20,421 bases of DNA from a virus: positions 1 to 20,421 of IMG/VR virus record IMGVR_UViG_3300042924_002327; one strand, written 5' to 3'. Made by a program: the position numbers and the translations under genes. Positions 2,327-17,312 of the stretch are shown in pieces (within the stretch, counting starts at the first letter, position 1; the number at the start of each line of letters is the position of its first letter). The notes under the pieces are model-generated. The model ran no database searches, was not told the origin of the DNA, and worked only from the letters and a program-made list of their open reading frames with translations.

Positions 2327-2567
2327 AAGATAAACTATACTCTTCTTCTTTCTTAGCTTTATACTCACTTAGAATATGATAAGCCTTTAGTTCTGTTTCT
2401 ACTACACAGTATTCTAGTTGATACTCTCTAGTAGACATACTTGAAAGGTCTTCTAGTACTCCTTCCCAGTAGCCTTGTTCTTTACCAAAGCCAAAGAAAG
2501 GTCGTCCTAGACTAATCCATACTTGAGGAACATAGCCTTTTGATACTTTTACTACTCTGGTTTTCAT
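2325..2567 (-). CDS. Hypothetical protein (80 aa)
   Basis: I start at ATG 2567 because it overlaps the upstream stop as ATGA and has AAGGA about 8 nt before it. The frame is open back to 2609, but that part duplicates the 3' end of the upstream gene. The N-terminus is basic (MKTRVVKVSKGYVPQVW), then 'LGRPFFGFGKEQGYWEGV', and the tail is helical and charged (KAKKEEEYSLS). No known domain is recognised. It is the last gene of its operon before the control region at 2187-2326. Confidence 0.7.
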   Translation of the reverse strand: MKTRVVKVSKGYVPQVWISLGRPFFGFGKEQGYWEGVLEDLSSMSTREYQLEYCVVETELKAYHILSEYKAKKEEEYSLS

Positions 2568-5091: not shown

Positions 5092-5358
5092 TTACACAAG
5101 GGTTGGGGCAGTGAAGCCTGGATAGTAAACAGCAACTCGTTTAGCTGCTTTCTTCAGCAACTCATTTACCGAAGCTACTTCTTGAACACTCATTGTAGGC
5201 CTTTCATCGTAGTAACGAAGTACCTCATAAAAGTAATCAAGTTGGTATTTTTTAACTTCTTCACGAAGTTTGTTAAACTTGTAAACTCGTTCATACCATT
5301 CATGAGCAGCTACTACGATACCGATTACAACAAGAGTTACAAAGGTTGCAGTCCACAT
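5092..5358 (-). CDS. N-terminally anchored membrane protein (88 aa)
   Basis: ATG 5358 has a strong SD (AAAAGGAG). Residues 3-18 (TATFVTLVVIGIVVAA) form a membrane anchor. The rest is soluble and helical, with charged stretches (NKLREEVKKYQLDYF and NELLKKAAKRVAVYY). The layout of one N-terminal span plus a coiled helix is that of an inner-membrane spanin, but it also fits many unrelated phage membrane proteins. Upstream lies structured element copy A, whose last hairpin ends 24 nt before this start. It heads the chain of tiny membrane genes (5080 to 4664). Confidence 0.72.
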   Translation of the reverse strand: MWTATFVTLVVIGIVVAAHEWYERVYKFNKLREEVKKYQLDYFYEVLRYYDERPTMSVQEVASVNELLKKAAKRVAVYYPGFTAPTLV

Positions 5359-5382: not shown

Positions 5383-5499
5383 TAAGCAGTTTCTCACTTG
5401 CTTAGGTGATGTCGTGGTTATACTCAATAGCTCCTTATCCACACTATTGAGAACTCCGCATGCTCCCGGAGTAACGAGCTAGCCTCTGTAGTTGCTAGC
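5383..5499 (-). ncRNA. Structured element, copy A (5' leader RNA or origin-like element)
   Basis: Read on the minus strand it has four stems. P1 is GCTAGC 5499-5494 with GCTAGC 5483-5478. P2 is ACTCCG 5472-5467 with CGGAGT 5458-5453. P3 is CTCAATAG 5451-5444 with CTATTGAG 5430-5423. P4 is TAAGC/GCTTA plus AGT/ACT with one bulged A, 5404-5383. A possible pseudoknot joins GTGG in the P3 loop (5442-5439) to CCAC (5417-5414). The P3 loop holds TGTGGATAA, the complement of a DnaA box (plus strand 5435-5443). Copy D at 6685-6802 has the same layout with altered but still paired stems. P4 ends 24 nt before the ATG of the 88-aa gene. No known RNA class is recognised. Confidence 0.65.
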
Positions 5500-5533
5500 G
5501 AACGCAGTTTCATTTGTTTTGTGGTATATTTAT

Positions 5534-5551
5534 ACACCCCCACTAGGGTGT
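5534..5551 (-). terminator. Hairpin after the 73-aa gene; possible -10 overlapping it
   Basis: ACACCC / GGGTGT (5551-5546 with 5539-5534 on the minus strand) forms a 6-bp stem with a 6-nt loop, 4 nt after the stop codon of the 73-aa gene. There is no T-run, only an A/T-rich tail (ATAAATATACC). On the minus strand TATAAA (5534-5529) could be a -10 element for a transcript that starts just upstream of element copy A. Both calls are tentative. Confidence 0.35.
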
Positions 5552-5555
5552 TTCC

Positions 5556-5777
5556 TTAATAAGAACGTCTACCTGAAAAAGGCTTTAAACCAGCTGCTAC
5601 ATCATATAGCATCTGGTAAGCTACGTCAGTTGACGCGTAGTAGCACTCAGGCCAGCAAAAGCCAGCCTGAATTTTTCTGTTACAGACAAACTGTCCAAAC
5701 CTTAGAGTTGACCGAAGACTTGAATCGCTAGACCAAGTGTTCCAGAGCGTTCTAAGCTCTTCAGTTGTGAGTTCCAT
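5556..5777 (-). CDS. Hypothetical protein (73 aa)
   Basis: ATG 5777 has an SD (GGGAG, 10 nt away). The sequence looks like a folded protein: 'LRTLWNTWSSD', 'LRFGQFVCNRK', 'GFCWPECYYASTDVAYQML'. It has three Cys and several Trp and Tyr. It overlaps the 74-aa gene by 76 nt in another frame, much more than the 4-nt overlaps usual here. The end is followed by a hairpin (5534-5551). Family not recognised. Confidence 0.65.
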   Translation of the reverse strand: MELTTEELRTLWNTWSSDSSLRSTLRFGQFVCNRKIQAGFCWPECYYASTDVAYQMLYDVAAGLKPFSGRRSY

Positions 5778-5926
5778 TTCTTTTTGACTCCCTTTATTCT
5801 AAACACAATAACAAGATCAGCTTCTCTCAGCCGATGCTTCCAACCGTGTTCAGTTACAAGTAGCTCATAGGTGACCCAAGAAACTTCAAGAAGTTTACCT
5901 GAGTCCAGTTGTGCGTAGTATCTCAT
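5702..5926 (-). CDS. Hypothetical protein (74 aa)
   Basis: ATG 5926 lies 2 nt after the stop of the 56-aa gene with only a weak GAG as SD, so translation is probably coupled. The first 50 residues (MRYYAQLDSGKLLEVSW ... LREADLVIVFRIKGVKKKW) look like a compact beta-rich protein. The last 25 residues overlap the start of the 73-aa gene in another frame. The C-terminus may have been extended by loss of an earlier stop. Function unknown. Confidence 0.6.
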   Translation of the reverse strand: MRYYAQLDSGKLLEVSWVTYELLVTEHGWKHRLREADLVIVFRIKGVKKKWNSQLKSLERSGTLGLAIQVFGQL

Positions 5927-5928
5927 TC

Positions 5929-6099
5929 TTAGCTCAACAATTTTATGGGCTCAGGAGTATAATCTTTTTCAATAGCAGCAACACAAAGACGACCGTAGTT
6001 GCTTAACTCTTCTTTTGAAAGAGTTTTGAGTTCATCGTGTCGAACTACTTTACCCGTGCTAGCGTGAACGACTTTAGCTTCAGAGTTGATCGCGAACAT
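5929..6099 (-). CDS. Hypothetical small protein (56 aa)
   Basis: The frame runs back to 6162, but the real start is most likely ATG 6099 (MFAINSEAKVVHASTGK), which has a strong SD (CAGGAG). The upstream 21 codons coincide with the conserved hairpin at 6126-6148, which is probably leader. The protein contains 'STGKVVRHDELKTLSKEEL', then 'YGRLCVAAIEKDYTPEPIKL'. It is small, soluble, and with no known motif. Confidence 0.7.
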   Translation of the reverse strand: MFAINSEAKVVHASTGKVVRHDELKTLSKEELSNYGRLCVAAIEKDYTPEPIKLLS

Positions 6100-6125
6100 T
6101 TTGTTCTCCTGTGAGGGGTTGATGT

Positions 6126-6148
6126 TGAGCAGTTTAAAGACTTGCTTA
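6126..6148 (-). promoter_or_regulatory. Conserved leader hairpin, copy B (P4 only)
   Basis: On the minus strand CCTAAGCAAG ... AACTGCTCA repeats the last hairpin of elements A and D, here with one A-C mismatch in the stem and a 6-nt loop. It lies in the 59-nt gap after the stop at 6159 and ends 26 nt before ATG 6099. The shared AACCC follows it. P1-P3 are absent. It may be an RNA processing or stability signal for the next gene. Confidence 0.55.
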
Positions 6149-6158
6149 GGTCTTAGCC

Positions 6159-6413
6159 TCAAGAAATACGGTTTAGCTCTTCTTCAGCCAACCATAGCTC
6201 TTCTCTTGCACTTTGAACGGCTTCTTGCAAAGCATCGTCTTCAGGGGCAGATTCGAGTGTGTCTTCACTAAGAAAATAAGCAGCTTGCTCGGCGAGCAGC
6301 AACTTTGTCTTAGCATGAGCAACACTCTCTTCGTACCATTTCTTTTCAAAGTATCCGCAAGCTTGATTAAGCTCGGCATCTACGGAAAAGAGGTTACGAA
6401 TGAACTTCAGCAT
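6159..6413 (-). CDS. Hypothetical acidic helical protein (84 aa)
   Basis: ATG 6413 has a strong SD (AGGAGG). The N-terminus is amphipathic (MLKFIRNLFSVDAELNQ). The rest is rich in Ala, Glu, Leu and Lys and predicted almost fully helical (SVAHAKTKLLLAEQAAYFL, LQEAVQSAREELWLAEEEL), so a coiled coil is likely. No membrane segment or catalytic motif is seen. Leader hairpin C lies 25 nt upstream. Function unknown. Confidence 0.75.
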   Translation of the reverse strand: MLKFIRNLFSVDAELNQACGYFEKKWYEESVAHAKTKLLLAEQAAYFLSEDTLESAPEDDALQEAVQSAREELWLAEEELNRIS

Positions 6414-6438
6414 GGGGTCCTCCTGATTGCTGAGTGGG

Positions 6439-6460
6439 TGAGCAGTTAGTCGCTTGCTCA
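6439..6460 (-). promoter_or_regulatory. Conserved leader hairpin, copy C (P4 only)
   Basis: On the minus strand CCTGAGCAAG ... AACTGCTCA forms the same bulged hairpin as A and D. A stem pair is changed from A-T to G-C (TGAGC/GCTCA instead of TAAGC/GCTTA), a compensatory change that supports pairing. It lies in the 57-nt gap between the stop at 6471 and ATG 6413, ending 25 nt before that start. P1-P3 are absent. Confidence 0.6.
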
Positions 6461-6470
6461 GGCCAAGACG

Positions 6471-6659
6471 TTAAAGCGTCATTACGAGGTGATATACTGC
6501 AGCACCATCGAGGGTTGCTGTCACATCTTCATGCAGCTGAAGAGCTTCTTTCAAAGCTTCTTCTTTGTTAGCCGACATGAAGTAGTCACTCGTCATAAAA
6601 CCGTTTTCACCATCGTCGGTAGTGAAAGCCAGTTTGACTAGGTACGGCATCGCTCTCAT
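6471..6659 (-). CDS. Hypothetical small protein (62 aa), first gene of left arm
   Basis: ATG 6659 has a strong SD (AAGGAGG). The protein (MRAMPYLVKLAFTTDDGENGF ... NKEEALKEALQLHEDV ... AAVYHLVMTL) looks like a small alpha/beta domain of the kind common in phage early regions. It is the first leftward gene, preceded by structured element copy D and the divergent promoter region, so it is probably among the first transcribed. Family not recognised. Confidence 0.73.
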   Translation of the reverse strand: MRAMPYLVKLAFTTDDGENGFMTSDYFMSANKEEALKEALQLHEDVTATLDGAAVYHLVMTL

Positions 6660-6684
6660 TAGAGCCTCCTTGGTTCAGGGTTGA

Positions 6685-6802
6685 TAAGCAGTTTCTCACT
6701 TGCTTAGGTGATGTCGTGGCTATATCCTACAGTTCCTTATCCACACTGTAGAAACCCGTCCTGCTCCTCGGGTAAGCGAGCCAGCCCCTAGAAAGCTCTG
6801 GC
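6685..6802 (-). ncRNA. Structured element, copy D (5' leader RNA or origin-like element)
   Basis: Same layout as copy A. P1 is GCCAG 6802-6798 with CTGGC 6784-6780. P2 is ACCCG 6773-6769 with CGGGT 6758-6754. P3 is CTACAGT 6751-6745 with ACTGTAG 6733-6727. P4 (6706-6685) is identical to that of A. The possible pseudoknot GTGG (6744-6741) with CCAC (6719-6716) is kept. A 35-bp block (6685-6719) is identical to 5383-5417. Stem sequences in P1, P2 and P3 differ from A on both sides so that pairing is preserved. The plus strand holds TTATCCACA (6737-6745), a perfect DnaA box. The element is followed after 25 nt by ATG 6659. No known RNA class is recognised. Confidence 0.68.
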
Positions 6803-6898
6803 ATGGATTCTCATTAGACTTGATTTAGTCTTTTGATTATTCATCATTATAGATACGTACTTTTCCTCACTTTTTAAACACAATTTTTAGGAATACAA
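6803..6898. promoter_or_regulatory. Divergent AT-rich promoter region between left and right arms
   Basis: This stretch separates the two transcription directions and is strongly A/T-rich. On the minus strand TCTAAT (6818-6813) is a fair -10 placed just before element D. On the plus strand TATAGA (6848-6853) is a weak -10 for phoH. No convincing -35 is seen for either. A small inverted repeat, AGACT 6816-6820 with AGTCT 6827-6831, lies in it. Next to a DnaA box, such an AT-rich tract could also be a DNA unwinding site. Confidence 0.4.
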
Positions 6899-7597
6899 AT
6901 GACCAAAACAAGAACTCGTGTCCGTTCGAATCAAGCTCGTCCCTTAGTAGATAAGGCAGTTCACATTCAACCTAAAACTCAGACTCAAGATCGATTGTTA
7001 AGAGCAGTAGAGAGCAGTCAGTTAGTTGTTACTATAGGACCTGCTGGTGTCGGTAAGACTTACTGTGCAGTAAATGCAGCTGTAAACTTACTTGTACAAG
7101 GACGTGTAAAGAAACTTGTTTTAGTTCGTGCTAATATTCCTACAGGAAAAACCCTTGGTTCTTTTCCCGGAGACATTTATGATAAGCTTGGGCCTTGGTT
7201 GGCTCCAATGACTAGTGAGATTAAGAAAAGACTTGGTGCTAATGACTACGACGCTAAACGTCACTCAGGACAGATTGAGTTTCATCCTCTAGAAACTATT
7301 CGTGGTGCTAGTTTCGAAGATACAATTATTCTTGTTGATGAGTCTCAGAATTTAACTTATGAAGAAGTGAAAGCAATTACTACACGTATCGGTGAAGGCT
7401 CTAAGATGATTCTCATGGGTGATCCGATGCAGCGTGATACACGTGACTCAGGACTTGTGGAATTTAAGAAGATTATTAATAAATATAATTTAGAAGTACC
7501 TGTGATTGAGTTCACAGTTGAAGATATTGTTCGTTCAGATCTTGTTGCGTCTCTTGTAAAAGCTTATCTTTTTCATGAAAAACACACAACTCTCTGA
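6899..7597 (+). CDS. phoH: PhoH-family P-loop ATPase
   Basis: This 232-aa protein is a phage-type PhoH ATPase. Walker A is GPAGVGKT (47-54), Walker B is IILVDE (143-148) followed by SQN, and 'MGDPMQRD' (173-180) is the family's third conserved motif. It lacks the RNA-binding and PIN domains of longer bacterial relatives, as is usual in phages. PhoH proteins belong to the superfamily-1 helicase-like ATPases; bacterial PhoH is induced by phosphate starvation, but the phage role is not settled and may concern RNA. An SD-like TAGGA lies 6 nt before the ATG. It is the first rightward gene, just upstream of virion genes. Confidence 0.92.
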   Translation: MTKTRTRVRSNQARPLVDKAVHIQPKTQTQDRLLRAVESSQLVVTIGPAGVGKTYCAVNAAVNLLVQGRVKKLVLVRANIPTGKTLGSFPGDIYDKLGPWLAPMTSEIKKRLGANDYDAKRHSGQIEFHPLETIRGASFEDTIILVDESQNLTYEEVKAITTRIGEGSKMILMGDPMQRDTRDSGLVEFKKIINKYNLEVPVIEFTVEDIVRSDLVASLVKAYLFHEKHTTL

Positions 7598-10884: not shown

Positions 10885-12521
10885 TGGCGACTAAAATTAT
10901 TCTTAAAAAATCTAACACAGCAGGTGCAATACCTTTAACAACTGATCTAGAAATTGGTGAAGTAGCACTTAACCTTGCTGATCGTAAGCTTTATACTAAA
11001 AACAATTCTAACGCTGTAGTCCCAATTGGCTCTGCCTTTGTAAATGCTACAGCTCCTAGCGCACCTGCAGAAGGTGATCTTTGGTATGACTCAGATAACG
11101 ATCTTTTAAAATCTTATAATGGTACTGCTTGGTCAGCTGCTGGATATACTACACTAACTGCTTTGGCAGACGTTACCATTACTTCTGTAGCTACTGGTGA
11201 AGTTCTAAAGTATGACGGAACTTCTTCTAAGTGGATCAATAATACTCTTGCAGAAGCTGGTATTAGTGCCGTTGGACATACACATGTTTCAACTGACATT
11301 ACAGATTTTGCTGAAGCAGTACAAGATATTATTGGTGTAGACGTTATTGCTGGTACAGGTATTTCAGTAGCATATAACGACACTACTGGTAAAACTACTG
11401 TCACTAACTCTTCTATTTATACTCATCCAACACAAACAGCTATTGCCGTAGACGCTACTAACAATGGTACTAATGTTATTGACAGCGTTACAGTTAATAC
11501 GCTAGGGCATGTTACTGCTGTAACAACTCGTGATCTTTCTGCTGCTACAACTTCTGCAGCTGGGGTAATGAGTGCAGCTGATAAAACAAAACTAGATGGT
11601 ATTGCTACAGGTGCAGAAGTAAATCAAAATGCTTTTAGCTCTGTAATTGTTGCTGGTCAAACTACAGTAGAAGCAGATGCAAAGACTGACGCTTTAACTT
11701 TAGCAGCAGGTACTGGTATTTCTATTGCAACCAACGCTACTACAGATACTATTACTATTACTAACACAGCTCCTAACCAGACAGTTTCAATTGCTTCTGG
11801 TAGTGGTATTACCGTTTCAGGTACTTATCCTAGCTTTACTGTAGATCATACAGATACCTCTTCACAAGCTTCTGTAGATAACTCTGGTGCAACTGTAATC
11901 CAAGATGTCACTTTAGATAGCTTTGGTCATATTACAGGTTTAGCTTCTGTAGCTATTACTCCTGCTCTCATTGGTGCAGCTACCTCTGCTCACAACCATA
12001 CTCTAGACTCTCTTTCTAACGTTACTATTACCAGTAATGCTAACGGTGAAATTCTACGTTGGAATGGTACTGCTTGGGTTAACAACACTCTTGCAGAAGC
12101 TGGCATTCTAACTGCTGAAGCAGATACCCTTGCTACCGTAACTGGTCGTGGTGCAACTACTGCAACTGCAGTTACACTAACTAATGCTACAGCTTCTACA
12201 GGTACTACTTCAGGTGCACTAATTGTAACTGGTGGTGTAGGTGTTGGTGGAAACCTTAACGTTGGTGGCAATACTATTATTACAGGTAACCTAACCGTTA
12301 ACGGTACTACTACTACTGTAAACTCTAACACTGTTAACATTGGCGACAATATTATCATTCTAAATGCTGATGAAACAGGTGCTGCTAGCCAAAATGCTGG
12401 TTTTGAAGTAGAGCGTGGTACTGATACTAACGTACAGTTTATCTGGAATGAAGCTAATGATGCTTGGGATATGGGCGATTGGCCATTACAAAACGTTAAA
12501 CTAGACGGCGGTTCTTACTAA
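10884..12521 (+). CDS. Tail fibre protein 1 (545 aa)
   Basis: The N-terminal 50 residues (MATKIILKKSNTAGAIPLTT, LEIGEVALNLADRKLYTKN) are the attachment-type domain seen in many fibres and in the Mtd N-terminus. The shaft is low-complexity Thr/Ala/Val with 'TSAAGVMSAADKTKLDGIAT' near residue 224. The C-terminal block 'GNLTVNGTTTTVNSNTVNIG' and 'NAGFEVERGTD' is a widely shared fibre end piece. It has no S74 domain. The N-terminus is paralogous to that of fibre 2, so both probably attach to similar sites. Virion surface, host recognition. Confidence 0.85.
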   Translation: MATKIILKKSNTAGAIPLTTDLEIGEVALNLADRKLYTKNNSNAVVPIGSAFVNATAPSAPAEGDLWYDSDNDLLKSYNGTAWSAAGYTTLTALADVTITSVATGEVLKYDGTSSKWINNTLAEAGISAVGHTHVSTDITDFAEAVQDIIGVDVIAGTGISVAYNDTTGKTTVTNSSIYTHPTQTAIAVDATNNGTNVIDSVTVNTLGHVTAVTTRDLSAATTSAAGVMSAADKTKLDGIATGAEVNQNAFSSVIVAGQTTVEADAKTDALTLAAGTGISIATNATTDTITITNTAPNQTVSIASGSGITVSGTYPSFTVDHTDTSSQASVDNSGATVIQDVTLDSFGHITGLASVAITPALIGAATSAHNHTLDSLSNVTITSNANGEILRWNGTAWVNNTLAEAGILTAEADTLATVTGRGATTATAVTLTNATASTGTTSGALIVTGGVGVGGNLNVGGNTIITGNLTVNGTTTTVNSNTVNIGDNIIILNADETGAASQNAGFEVERGTDTNVQFIWNEANDAWDMGDWPLQNVKLDGGSY

Positions 12522-16362: not shown

Positions 16363-17312
16363 TGTTTACAACTAAACATTTACTAGGTGCAGATACTGGG
16401 GGTAGCAAAAACAGAGGTATCTTTGGTGGTGGTGCTATTAACTCTTCAAGCACTTACTACAACACCATGGATTATATCACTATTTCTACTCTAGGTAACG
16501 CTGTTGATTTTGGTGATTTAACTTCGGCTAGATATGGAACTGCTGCAACTTCTAGTGGCTCAAGGGGAGTCTTTGGCGGTGGTCAAACCAATGCTTCTAG
16601 TAGATCTAACGTAATAGAATACATTACGATTGTAACTACAGGAAACTCTATTGACTTTGGAGACTTGACTGTTTCTAGAGCTGGTCTCGGGGCAACCTCT
16701 GATGGCTCAAGGGGTGTTTTTGGTGGAGGTTTTACCTCAAATAGCAGTAACGTAATAGACTACATTACGATTGCAACTACAGGTAATGCTACTGACCTGG
16801 GAGACTTAACGGTTGCTAGACATGACATTACTGCCACATCAAATGGGTCTAGAGGTGTCTTTGGTGGTGGACAAGAAGGTTTCTTCGCGACGGGCCGAAC
16901 AAACACAATAGACTATAAAACTATTGCTACAACAGGTAACGCTACTGACTTTGGAGACTTGACTCTTAATCTATCACAACTCGCGGCCACATCAAATGGG
17001 CCTAGAGGTGTTTTTGGTGGTGGAAACAACATTTCCAACTCTGCTGTAAACACAATAGCCTACATTACGATTGCAACTGCAGGTAACGCTATTGATTTTG
17101 GAGACTTGACTCAAAGAAGAAACTTTGTGGCTGCAACTTCTAATGGCTCAAGGGGAGTCTTTGGAGGTGGGTATCAACCTGATGTGGTTGAAGCAGTGGT
17201 TAATGCTATTGACTATATCACAATTTCCACTACAGGTAACGCTACTGACTTTGGGGACTTAACGGTTGCTAGACAGGCTCTTGCCGCTCTTTCAGGTTTT
17301 ACGGGTGCTTAA
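16362..17312 (+). CDS. Six-repeat kelch-like fibre or tip protein (316 aa)
   Basis: After a 17-residue leader the protein is six repeats of about 48-54 residues. Each begins 'RGVFGGG', continues with 'N.IDYITI.TTGNA.DFGDL' and ends in 'ATSNGS' before the next. The Gly-rich start and strand pattern match kelch-like repeats, so a six-bladed beta-propeller is likely. Such proteins occur near phage fibre genes and probably bind a host surface sugar or protein. The region between 'GGG' and 'N.IDY' is the most variable and may form the binding face. TAATG coupling to the gene before it and a direct TAA-ATG junction after it place it in the fibre operon. Confidence 0.8.
   Translation: MFTTKHLLGADTGGSKNRGIFGGGAINSSSTYYNTMDYITISTLGNAVDFGDLTSARYGTAATSSGSRGVFGGGQTNASSRSNVIEYITIVTTGNSIDFGDLTVSRAGLGATSDGSRGVFGGGFTSNSSNVIDYITIATTGNATDLGDLTVARHDITATSNGSRGVFGGGQEGFFATGRTNTIDYKTIATTGNATDFGDLTLNLSQLAATSNGPRGVFGGGNNISNSAVNTIAYITIATAGNAIDFGDLTQRRNFVAATSNGSRGVFGGGYQPDVVEAVVNAIDYITISTTGNATDFGDLTVARQALAALSGFTGA
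16413..17300 (+). repeat. Six tandem coding repeats (about 145-160 bp each)
   Basis: DNA repeats underlying the kelch-like protein. Conserved pieces include GGTGTTTTTGGTGG-like starts, 'ACTACAGGTAACGCTACTGAC' style middles and 'TCAAATGGG' or 'GATGGCTCAAGG' ends. They are close enough at DNA level that recombination between units could change repeat number. Confidence 0.75.

Follow-up and report, generated by a model that had tools for sequence, protein, structure and literature searches.

Results

Two copies of a structured element lie in a leftward block of small genes

The window, by which we mean the whole stretch of DNA analysed, is a virus record of 20,421 bases whose portal protein is nearest to those of roseophages DSS3_VP1 and DSS3_PM1 (44% identity). 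Small genes in its left part run leftward, away from a divergent PhoH gene (Table 1). The first-pass annotation had placed two minus-strand elements of ~117 nt in this block, and both were found at those positions. They share a direct repeat of 68 nt with 88% identity (5383-5450 and 6685-6752) that includes the perfect 35-nt block described earlier (5383-5417, identical to 6685-6719). Each full copy stops 15-25 nt short of the Shine-Dalgarno sequence of a minus-strand ORF, also as described. Elsewhere, at 16449-17275, the window carries a 316-aa ORF with 5-6 imperfect tandem repeats of ~147 nt each (GVFGGG-type protein repeats).

Table 1. Coordinates of the elements, pseudoknots and neighbouring genes in the window
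Feature	Position	Strand	Details
PhoH-like ATPase gene	6899..7597	+	divergent from the leftward block
Possible -10 box	6846..6851	-	TATAAT; putative leftward promoter upstream of element A, predicted from sequence; conserved in relatives
Element A, full	6685..6802	-	P1 6802-6798/6784-6780; P2 6773-6769/6758-6754; P3 6751-6745/6733-6727; PK3 6744-6741/6719-6716; then PK4
PK4 of A	6685..6711	-	S1 6711-6708/6699-6696 (UCAC/GUGA); L1 C; S2 6706-6701/6690-6685 (UAAGCA/UGCUUA); L3 GAAAC
62-aa ORF	6471..6659	-	downstream of element A; without family match
Stand-alone pseudoknot	6439..6469	-	starts 1-2 nt past the stop codon of the 62-aa ORF; S1 weak variant GUC/GAC; S2 UGAGCA 6460-6455/UGCUCA 6444-6439
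84-aa ORF	6159..6413	-	flanked by both stand-alone pseudoknots
Stand-alone pseudoknot	6126..6154	-	4 nt past the stop codon of the 84-aa ORF; S1 AAGAC 6154-6150/GUCUU 6141-6137; S2 UAAGCA 6148-6143/UGCUCA 6131-6126, 5/6 pairs (6/6 in relative L003)
56-aa ORF	5929..6099	-	downstream of the second stand-alone pseudoknot
Element B, full	5383..5499	-	P1 5499-5494/5483-5478; P2 5472-5467/5458-5453; P3 5451-5444/5430-5423; PK3 5442-5439/5417-5414; then PK4
PK4 of B	5383..5409	-	S1 5409-5406/5397-5394; S2 5404-5399/5388-5383
88-aa ORF	5092..5358	-	downstream of element B; without confident family

Three stems, P1, P2 and P3, pair along their whole length in each copy, and both sides of every stem change between the copies, as had been proposed. 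The further homologues with compensatory changes on which that proposal hung do exist, since the relatives L003/L008 and L009/L010/L014 contribute two extra compensated versions. Across the copies and relatives, P1 occurs as GCCAG/CTGGC, GCTAGC/GCTAGC and GTTGGC/GCCAAC; P2 as ACCCG/CGGGT, ACTCCG/CGGAGT and AACTCCG/CGGAGTT; and P3 as CTACAGT/ACTGTAG, TCTACAG/CTGTAGA, CTCAATAG/CTATTGAG and TTCATAG/CTATGAA. The GTGG/CCAC pseudoknot (PK3), previously suggested as possible, is present in both copies and all of these relatives. This covariation supports the view that selection acts on the RNA structure. Folding energies of the single copies gave no structure signal (z = -0.88 and +0.49); the evidence for the fold of the window element is covariation. 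Short leader peptides across P1-P3 exist in A and B; on inspection their frames differ between the copies, and coding by them was rejected.

The fourth stem of the first-pass annotation, TAAGCA/TGCTTA, does pair, but it is not a plain hairpin. It contains one half of a UCAC/GUGA helix whose other half lies outside, and the fourth stem is therefore a second pseudoknot (PK4). Its motif AGCAAG-N5/6-AACTGCT recurs alone at the two stand-alone positions in Table 1, each ahead of another window gene. The genes between knots vary among relatives of the window, resembling shuffled cassettes. One of these relatives, L009, also carries a pseudoknot variant without AAAC, GACCUGAGCAGGUC-RUUAAAAG-GCUCA, after other small genes (2100-2124 and 2520-2544, minus strand).

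Covariation establishes an H-type pseudoknot of ~28 nt

The module reads S1, C, UGAGCA, N, S1', nn, AAAC, UGCUCA. Its halves come in the order S1, S2, S1', S2', so that it forms an H-type pseudoknot and not a hairpin. In window-type copies, S1 pairs UCAC with GUGA, AAGAC with GUCUU or GACC with GGUC, and S2 pairs UAAGCA or UGAGCA with a downstream UGCUUA or UGCUCA. Overall, S1 has 3-6 bp of variable sequence with a C-G closing pair, the loop C is 1 nt, and S2 has 6 bp, usually UGAGCA/UGCUCA. The 1-nt junction is rarely or never G, and the short third loop ends in AAAC.

A scan with CCTRAGCAAG-N7-AACTGCT found at least 80 loci, and a perfect S1, which is absent from the pattern, was seen in about one third of the matches listed. 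The main scan used CTGAGCA-N4..16-AAACTGCTCA, for which the reversed control gave 31 matches in the whole collection; the figures that follow are among the matches listed. With any gap, 83 of 86 distinct matches pair over 3 bp or more in S1, where ~13 are expected after shuffling, and the junction is almost always exactly one nucleotide. At the main spacing (gap-7), where no condition was placed on S1, all 77 distinct matches have three Watson-Crick S1 pairs, and all four pair types occur at pair 3. Shuffling (2000 rounds) gave a mean of 10 and a maximum of 21 such matches, and sliding S1 by 1-2 nt gave 0. S2 also covaries at position 2, where a scan had left it free (A with T in 6/8, G with C in 22/22), and further compensated versions include TGAGTA/TACTCA, TGGACA/TGTCCA, TAGACA/TGTCTA, TGAACA/TGTTCA and GCAGCA/TGCTGC. 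Thus, the module has two interleaved helices, each with compensatory changes, which defines an H-type pseudoknot. The loop consensus is partly imposed, because the scans demanded set letters (CTGAGCA/AAACTGCTCA and variants); when the third loop was left free, AAAC was still dominant. A site in L115 that fits a loose pattern was rejected as a GC-rich chance match.

The module is widespread in phages and provisionally new

Across many bacterial phyla, tailed phages carry the module, as does some other mobile DNA; the carriers include phages of Actinobacteria, Firmicutes, Proteobacteria, Cyanobacteria and Bacteroidales. Among isolates with the module are Roseobacter SIO1, Lentibacter ICBM1-3, Celeribacter P12053L, Mycobacterium Labelle, Nostoc NMeng1, Lacticaseibacillus P7.1, phiAQ113, Lactobacillus phig1e, phiEF-1.1 and the crAss-like cr7_1. 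It is found on a few plasmids and is rare in chromosomes: 13 of 350 Lactobacillaceae and 4 of 292 members of the Nostoc phylum had it in a chromosome survey (reversed-pattern control, 0), and 17 variants of the motif had no match in E. coli genomes. At L297:212-236, an apparent CRISPR spacer with the pseudoknot sequence lies beside a repeat-like CCCTTTCAGGGATTGAAAC. That this spacer-like sequence contains the knot suggests that some hosts sample phages at the knot site.

In line with the earlier statement that the element belongs to no known class, a search of Rfam 15 at the gathering threshold gave no match for the window, the element region or the pseudoknots at ~50 other loci, and the element region gave only unrelated chance scores up to E 5. 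Rfam matches near pseudoknots are neighbouring RNAs and not the knot. DUF2800 RNA (RF02960), hammerhead (RF00008) and pistol (RF02679) lie directly 3' of the knot or on the same contigs in some genomes, but they are separate families and none matched the pseudoknot itself. In the part of the literature covered, no description of the pseudoknot was found. We therefore regard it, provisionally, as new to Rfam and the literature. The module has apparently been overlooked because standard RNA models cannot represent so short a pseudoknot.

The pseudoknot often follows stop codons of unrelated genes

We examined placement among the matches listed, with genes called by simple ORF rules outside annotated isolates. 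Only 9 of 333 matches fall inside an ORF of at least 150 aa; the module is generally intergenic and on the coding strand. Relative to both neighbouring genes it lies on the same strand in 202 cases and on the opposite strand in 9, against a baseline of 885:185. In 173 of 327 matches its 5' end is at most 20 nt past the stop codon of an ORF with 60 codons or more, when ~29 would be expected for random intergenic points. Spacing from stop to knot is typically 4-12 nt with a mode of 5-6 nt, and annotated isolates concur. About half of the instances are without an adjoining stop codon.

Within the window, the description of a leader ending before a Shine-Dalgarno sequence holds, but across phages the module follows the upstream stop far more than the downstream start. 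It is thus unlikely that the module is a 5' leader element that protects or regulates the downstream gene, whether as an RNase J/E stabiliser, a translational operator or a riboswitch. Elements A and B do sit directly ahead of Shine-Dalgarno sequences, 30 divergent cases have a co-directional gene downstream only, starts are in slight excess 15-40 nt downstream, and in Lactobacillus phages the knot precedes scaffold or capsid genes. However, the next start lies at widely varying distances (median ~97 nt), 26 cases are convergent, and the 204 upstream proteins fall into 119 clusters that reveal no common ligand-related gene. Since the upstream genes are unrelated, we also rejected a shared ligand or operator gene. 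The riboswitch role offered by the first-pass annotation is likewise a poor fit for a module that occurs beside over 100 unrelated protein clusters as well as tRNAs. Convergent and divergent settings are about equally frequent, so that the module may have a 5' or leader role in some settings.

Two further conserved features adjoin the knot. In diverse bacteria, the stop codon of a tiny conserved ORF (~20 codons, for example MKRFMIPRTAHCDEGCRILS, with an HCxxGC motif) overlaps or abuts the pseudoknot, and a terminator-like hairpin comes next in several cases (L245, L246, L250, L252, L268, L272, L276, L289, L295, L302, L304 and L309 carry the ORF). It is possibly a new small-peptide gene family. 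In the Lactobacillus phages L456, L458, L459 and L461, a second conserved hairpin separates the pseudoknot from the scaffold gene or from other structural genes downstream.

RNA 3' ends may form just past the knot, and plain hairpins can replace it

A tRNA gene starts 4-14 nt past the knot in 16 cases. Hammerheads abut it in L241 (twice), L121 and L274, and from hammerhead anatomy on inspection, cleavage would fall 5 and 5 (L241), 12 (L121) and 7 (L274) nt past the knot. One L241 hammerhead scored above the Rfam threshold; the second L241 copy and those of L121 and L274 were identified by their core, the latter two having no Rfam gathering match. In two further contigs (L266:2824-2981 and L303:1691-1849), DUF2800 RNA begins immediately 3' of the pseudoknot, which suggests that both are parts of one unit. 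For most copies, those of the window included, no site of RNA cutting or termination can be recognised directly after the knot.

A U-tract lies at most 14 nt past the knot in 45 of 321 matches, compared with 12 and 10 in control windows (~fourfold), and C-type relatives of the window element have a run of 12-13 T ~8 nt past it. These tracts would suit a transcription element, either a terminator made of pseudoknot plus U-tract or an antiterminator acting on RNA polymerase. The majority of knots have no U-tract, however, and many lie 4-14 nt ahead of tRNA genes or just ahead of a gene, so we judge such a role quite unlikely.

At the junction between DUF932 and tRNA-Asp genes, about a dozen phages, including L164 and L194, carry the pseudoknot. 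The DUF932 proteins of L171 and L200 share 74-75% identity with those of the knot carriers L164 and L194, but in these two phages a GGGGCCCC-tetraloop-GGGGCCCC hairpin replaces the knot in the same spacer. The same exchange is seen within L274, which has four hammerhead-like ribozymes (3961, 4346, 5746 and 6543): the pseudoknot stands ahead of one and plain hairpins ahead of the other three. Hammerheads in L096 and L038 also have a plain hairpin in front, and no upstream motif was found for those of PaP3 and Bcep176. These swaps indicate that a generic stable hairpin can apparently serve the same purpose, and they favour a function as a barrier or in protection rather than the sensing of a ligand or the binding of one specific protein.

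The swaps also bear on two other readings. The knot could bind a specific factor, either a phage or host RNA-binding protein or, as a decoy, a partner of the type III antitoxin pseudoknots that it would mimic. Conservation is strong in the loops and junction while S1 is free, and some phages have multiple copies. Yet the knot is usually single and not arrayed in repeats, its spread over five groups of phages would require a universal partner, and plain hairpins can substitute; we regard this reading as improbable. A new small self-cleaving ribozyme is very improbable. The loop nucleotides are strict, and hammerheads adjoin the knot and pistol ribozymes occur in the same phages, but the knot stands in tandem with hammerheads and not in their place, its ~10 bp leave little room for an active site, its sequence contains no known ribozyme core, and a plain hairpin can replace it. 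Finally, a signal for stop-codon readthrough or frameshifting, which the 5-6 nt spacing past the stop resembles, is largely refuted and scarcely credible, since no long open frame runs on through the knot (medians of 8, 7 and 5 codons in the three frames) and tRNAs, ribozymes and terminators come next.

Other RNAs were seen in the same collection. Pistol ribozymes lie at L057:6623-6692 and L036:5118-5186, in a gene-poor region of contigs with 3-4 pseudoknots each, and L057 encodes a T7-like RNA polymerase. The phage contig L155 has a permuted tmRNA-like match (11778-12019), and L195 a weaker tmRNA match (11486-11558).

Discussion

We consider it somewhat probable that the pseudoknot is a compact mechanical barrier at the 3' ends of phage mRNAs, acting against 3'-to-5' exonucleases; its placement and the hairpin swaps lend indirect support to such resistance. 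A 3' end would arise close past the knot through RNase P, ribozyme self-cleavage or termination of transcription. From its position 4-12 nt past the stop codon, the knot would then keep 3'-to-5' exonucleases out of the coding region. Given what is generally known of ribosome footprints, a terminating ribosome would fit into a spacing of 5-6 nt with the knot still folded. In the window, if transcription runs leftward as predicted, the stand-alone knots would close the messages of the 62-aa and 84-aa genes. Among the three roles offered by the first-pass annotation (antiterminator, riboswitch and RNase-resistant element), the last appears to fit best. A wider version, which we put forward tentatively and as falling just short of probable, is that one conserved pseudoknot serves as a common 3'-end shield of phage mRNA across many phyla. 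It would be a prokaryotic counterpart of xrRNA working from the 3' side, exposed by RNase P, self-cleaving ribozymes or terminators.

In the full copies A and B, the knot ends longer, putative structured leaders (P1-P3 and PK3) and may fix the 3' end of a short structured leader RNA or shield it. Element A has a likely promoter before it and no co-directional gene upstream, and would be a genuine leader; it may form the tail of such an RNA or act on the gene downstream. The strict C, the AAAC and the preferred S2 exceed the needs of a generic roadblock, and could point to a specific partner.

Several known systems resemble the proposed barrier in part. REP elements and terminator stems, the hairpins that stabilise bacterial mRNA at its 3' end, likewise place a stable intergenic structure past a stop codon, and a plain hairpin replaces the knot at the same site; however, REP is a host repeat, whereas here a conserved pseudoknot whose loop nucleotides are fixed recurs in phages of many phyla. 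T4-type phages have promoter-early stem-loop cassettes, with stem-loops at gene junctions and shuffling of small-gene cassettes. Such shuffling is also seen in the window relatives, but the T4-type cassettes have plain stem-loops, belong to one phage group and show no conserved pseudoknot. The xrRNAs of flaviviruses and plant viruses and the coremin motif are compact folds that halt a processive exonuclease and shield the RNA behind them; viral xrRNAs stop the eukaryotic 5'-3' enzyme Xrn1 (PMC10520033). In contrast, the block proposed for the phage knot would come from the 3' side, in DNA phages. Coremin consists of a GUC..GAC hairpin with a YGAD-type loop, a spacer of 8-10 nt and a second hairpin (PMC10520033); our motif, a pseudoknot with UGAGCA/UGCUCA, does not have this form, and coremin xrRNA was rejected. 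The gene 32 mRNA of T4 and T2 contains an H-type pseudoknot with coaxial stems, a gene-specific autoregulatory leader site (PMC3014915). It is also an H-type fold in phage mRNA, but not a recurring module after unrelated genes.

Few cis-acting RNA structures in phages would be as widely shared as this pseudoknot, and direct tests are possible in the culturable phages Mycobacterium Labelle, Lacticaseibacillus P7.1 and Roseobacter SIO1. If it blocks exonucleases, it would explain how chosen gene segments stay stable within long processed phage transcripts and would give a reason for the hammerheads and tRNAs right behind phage genes. It would also provide a stabilising tag of 28 nt.
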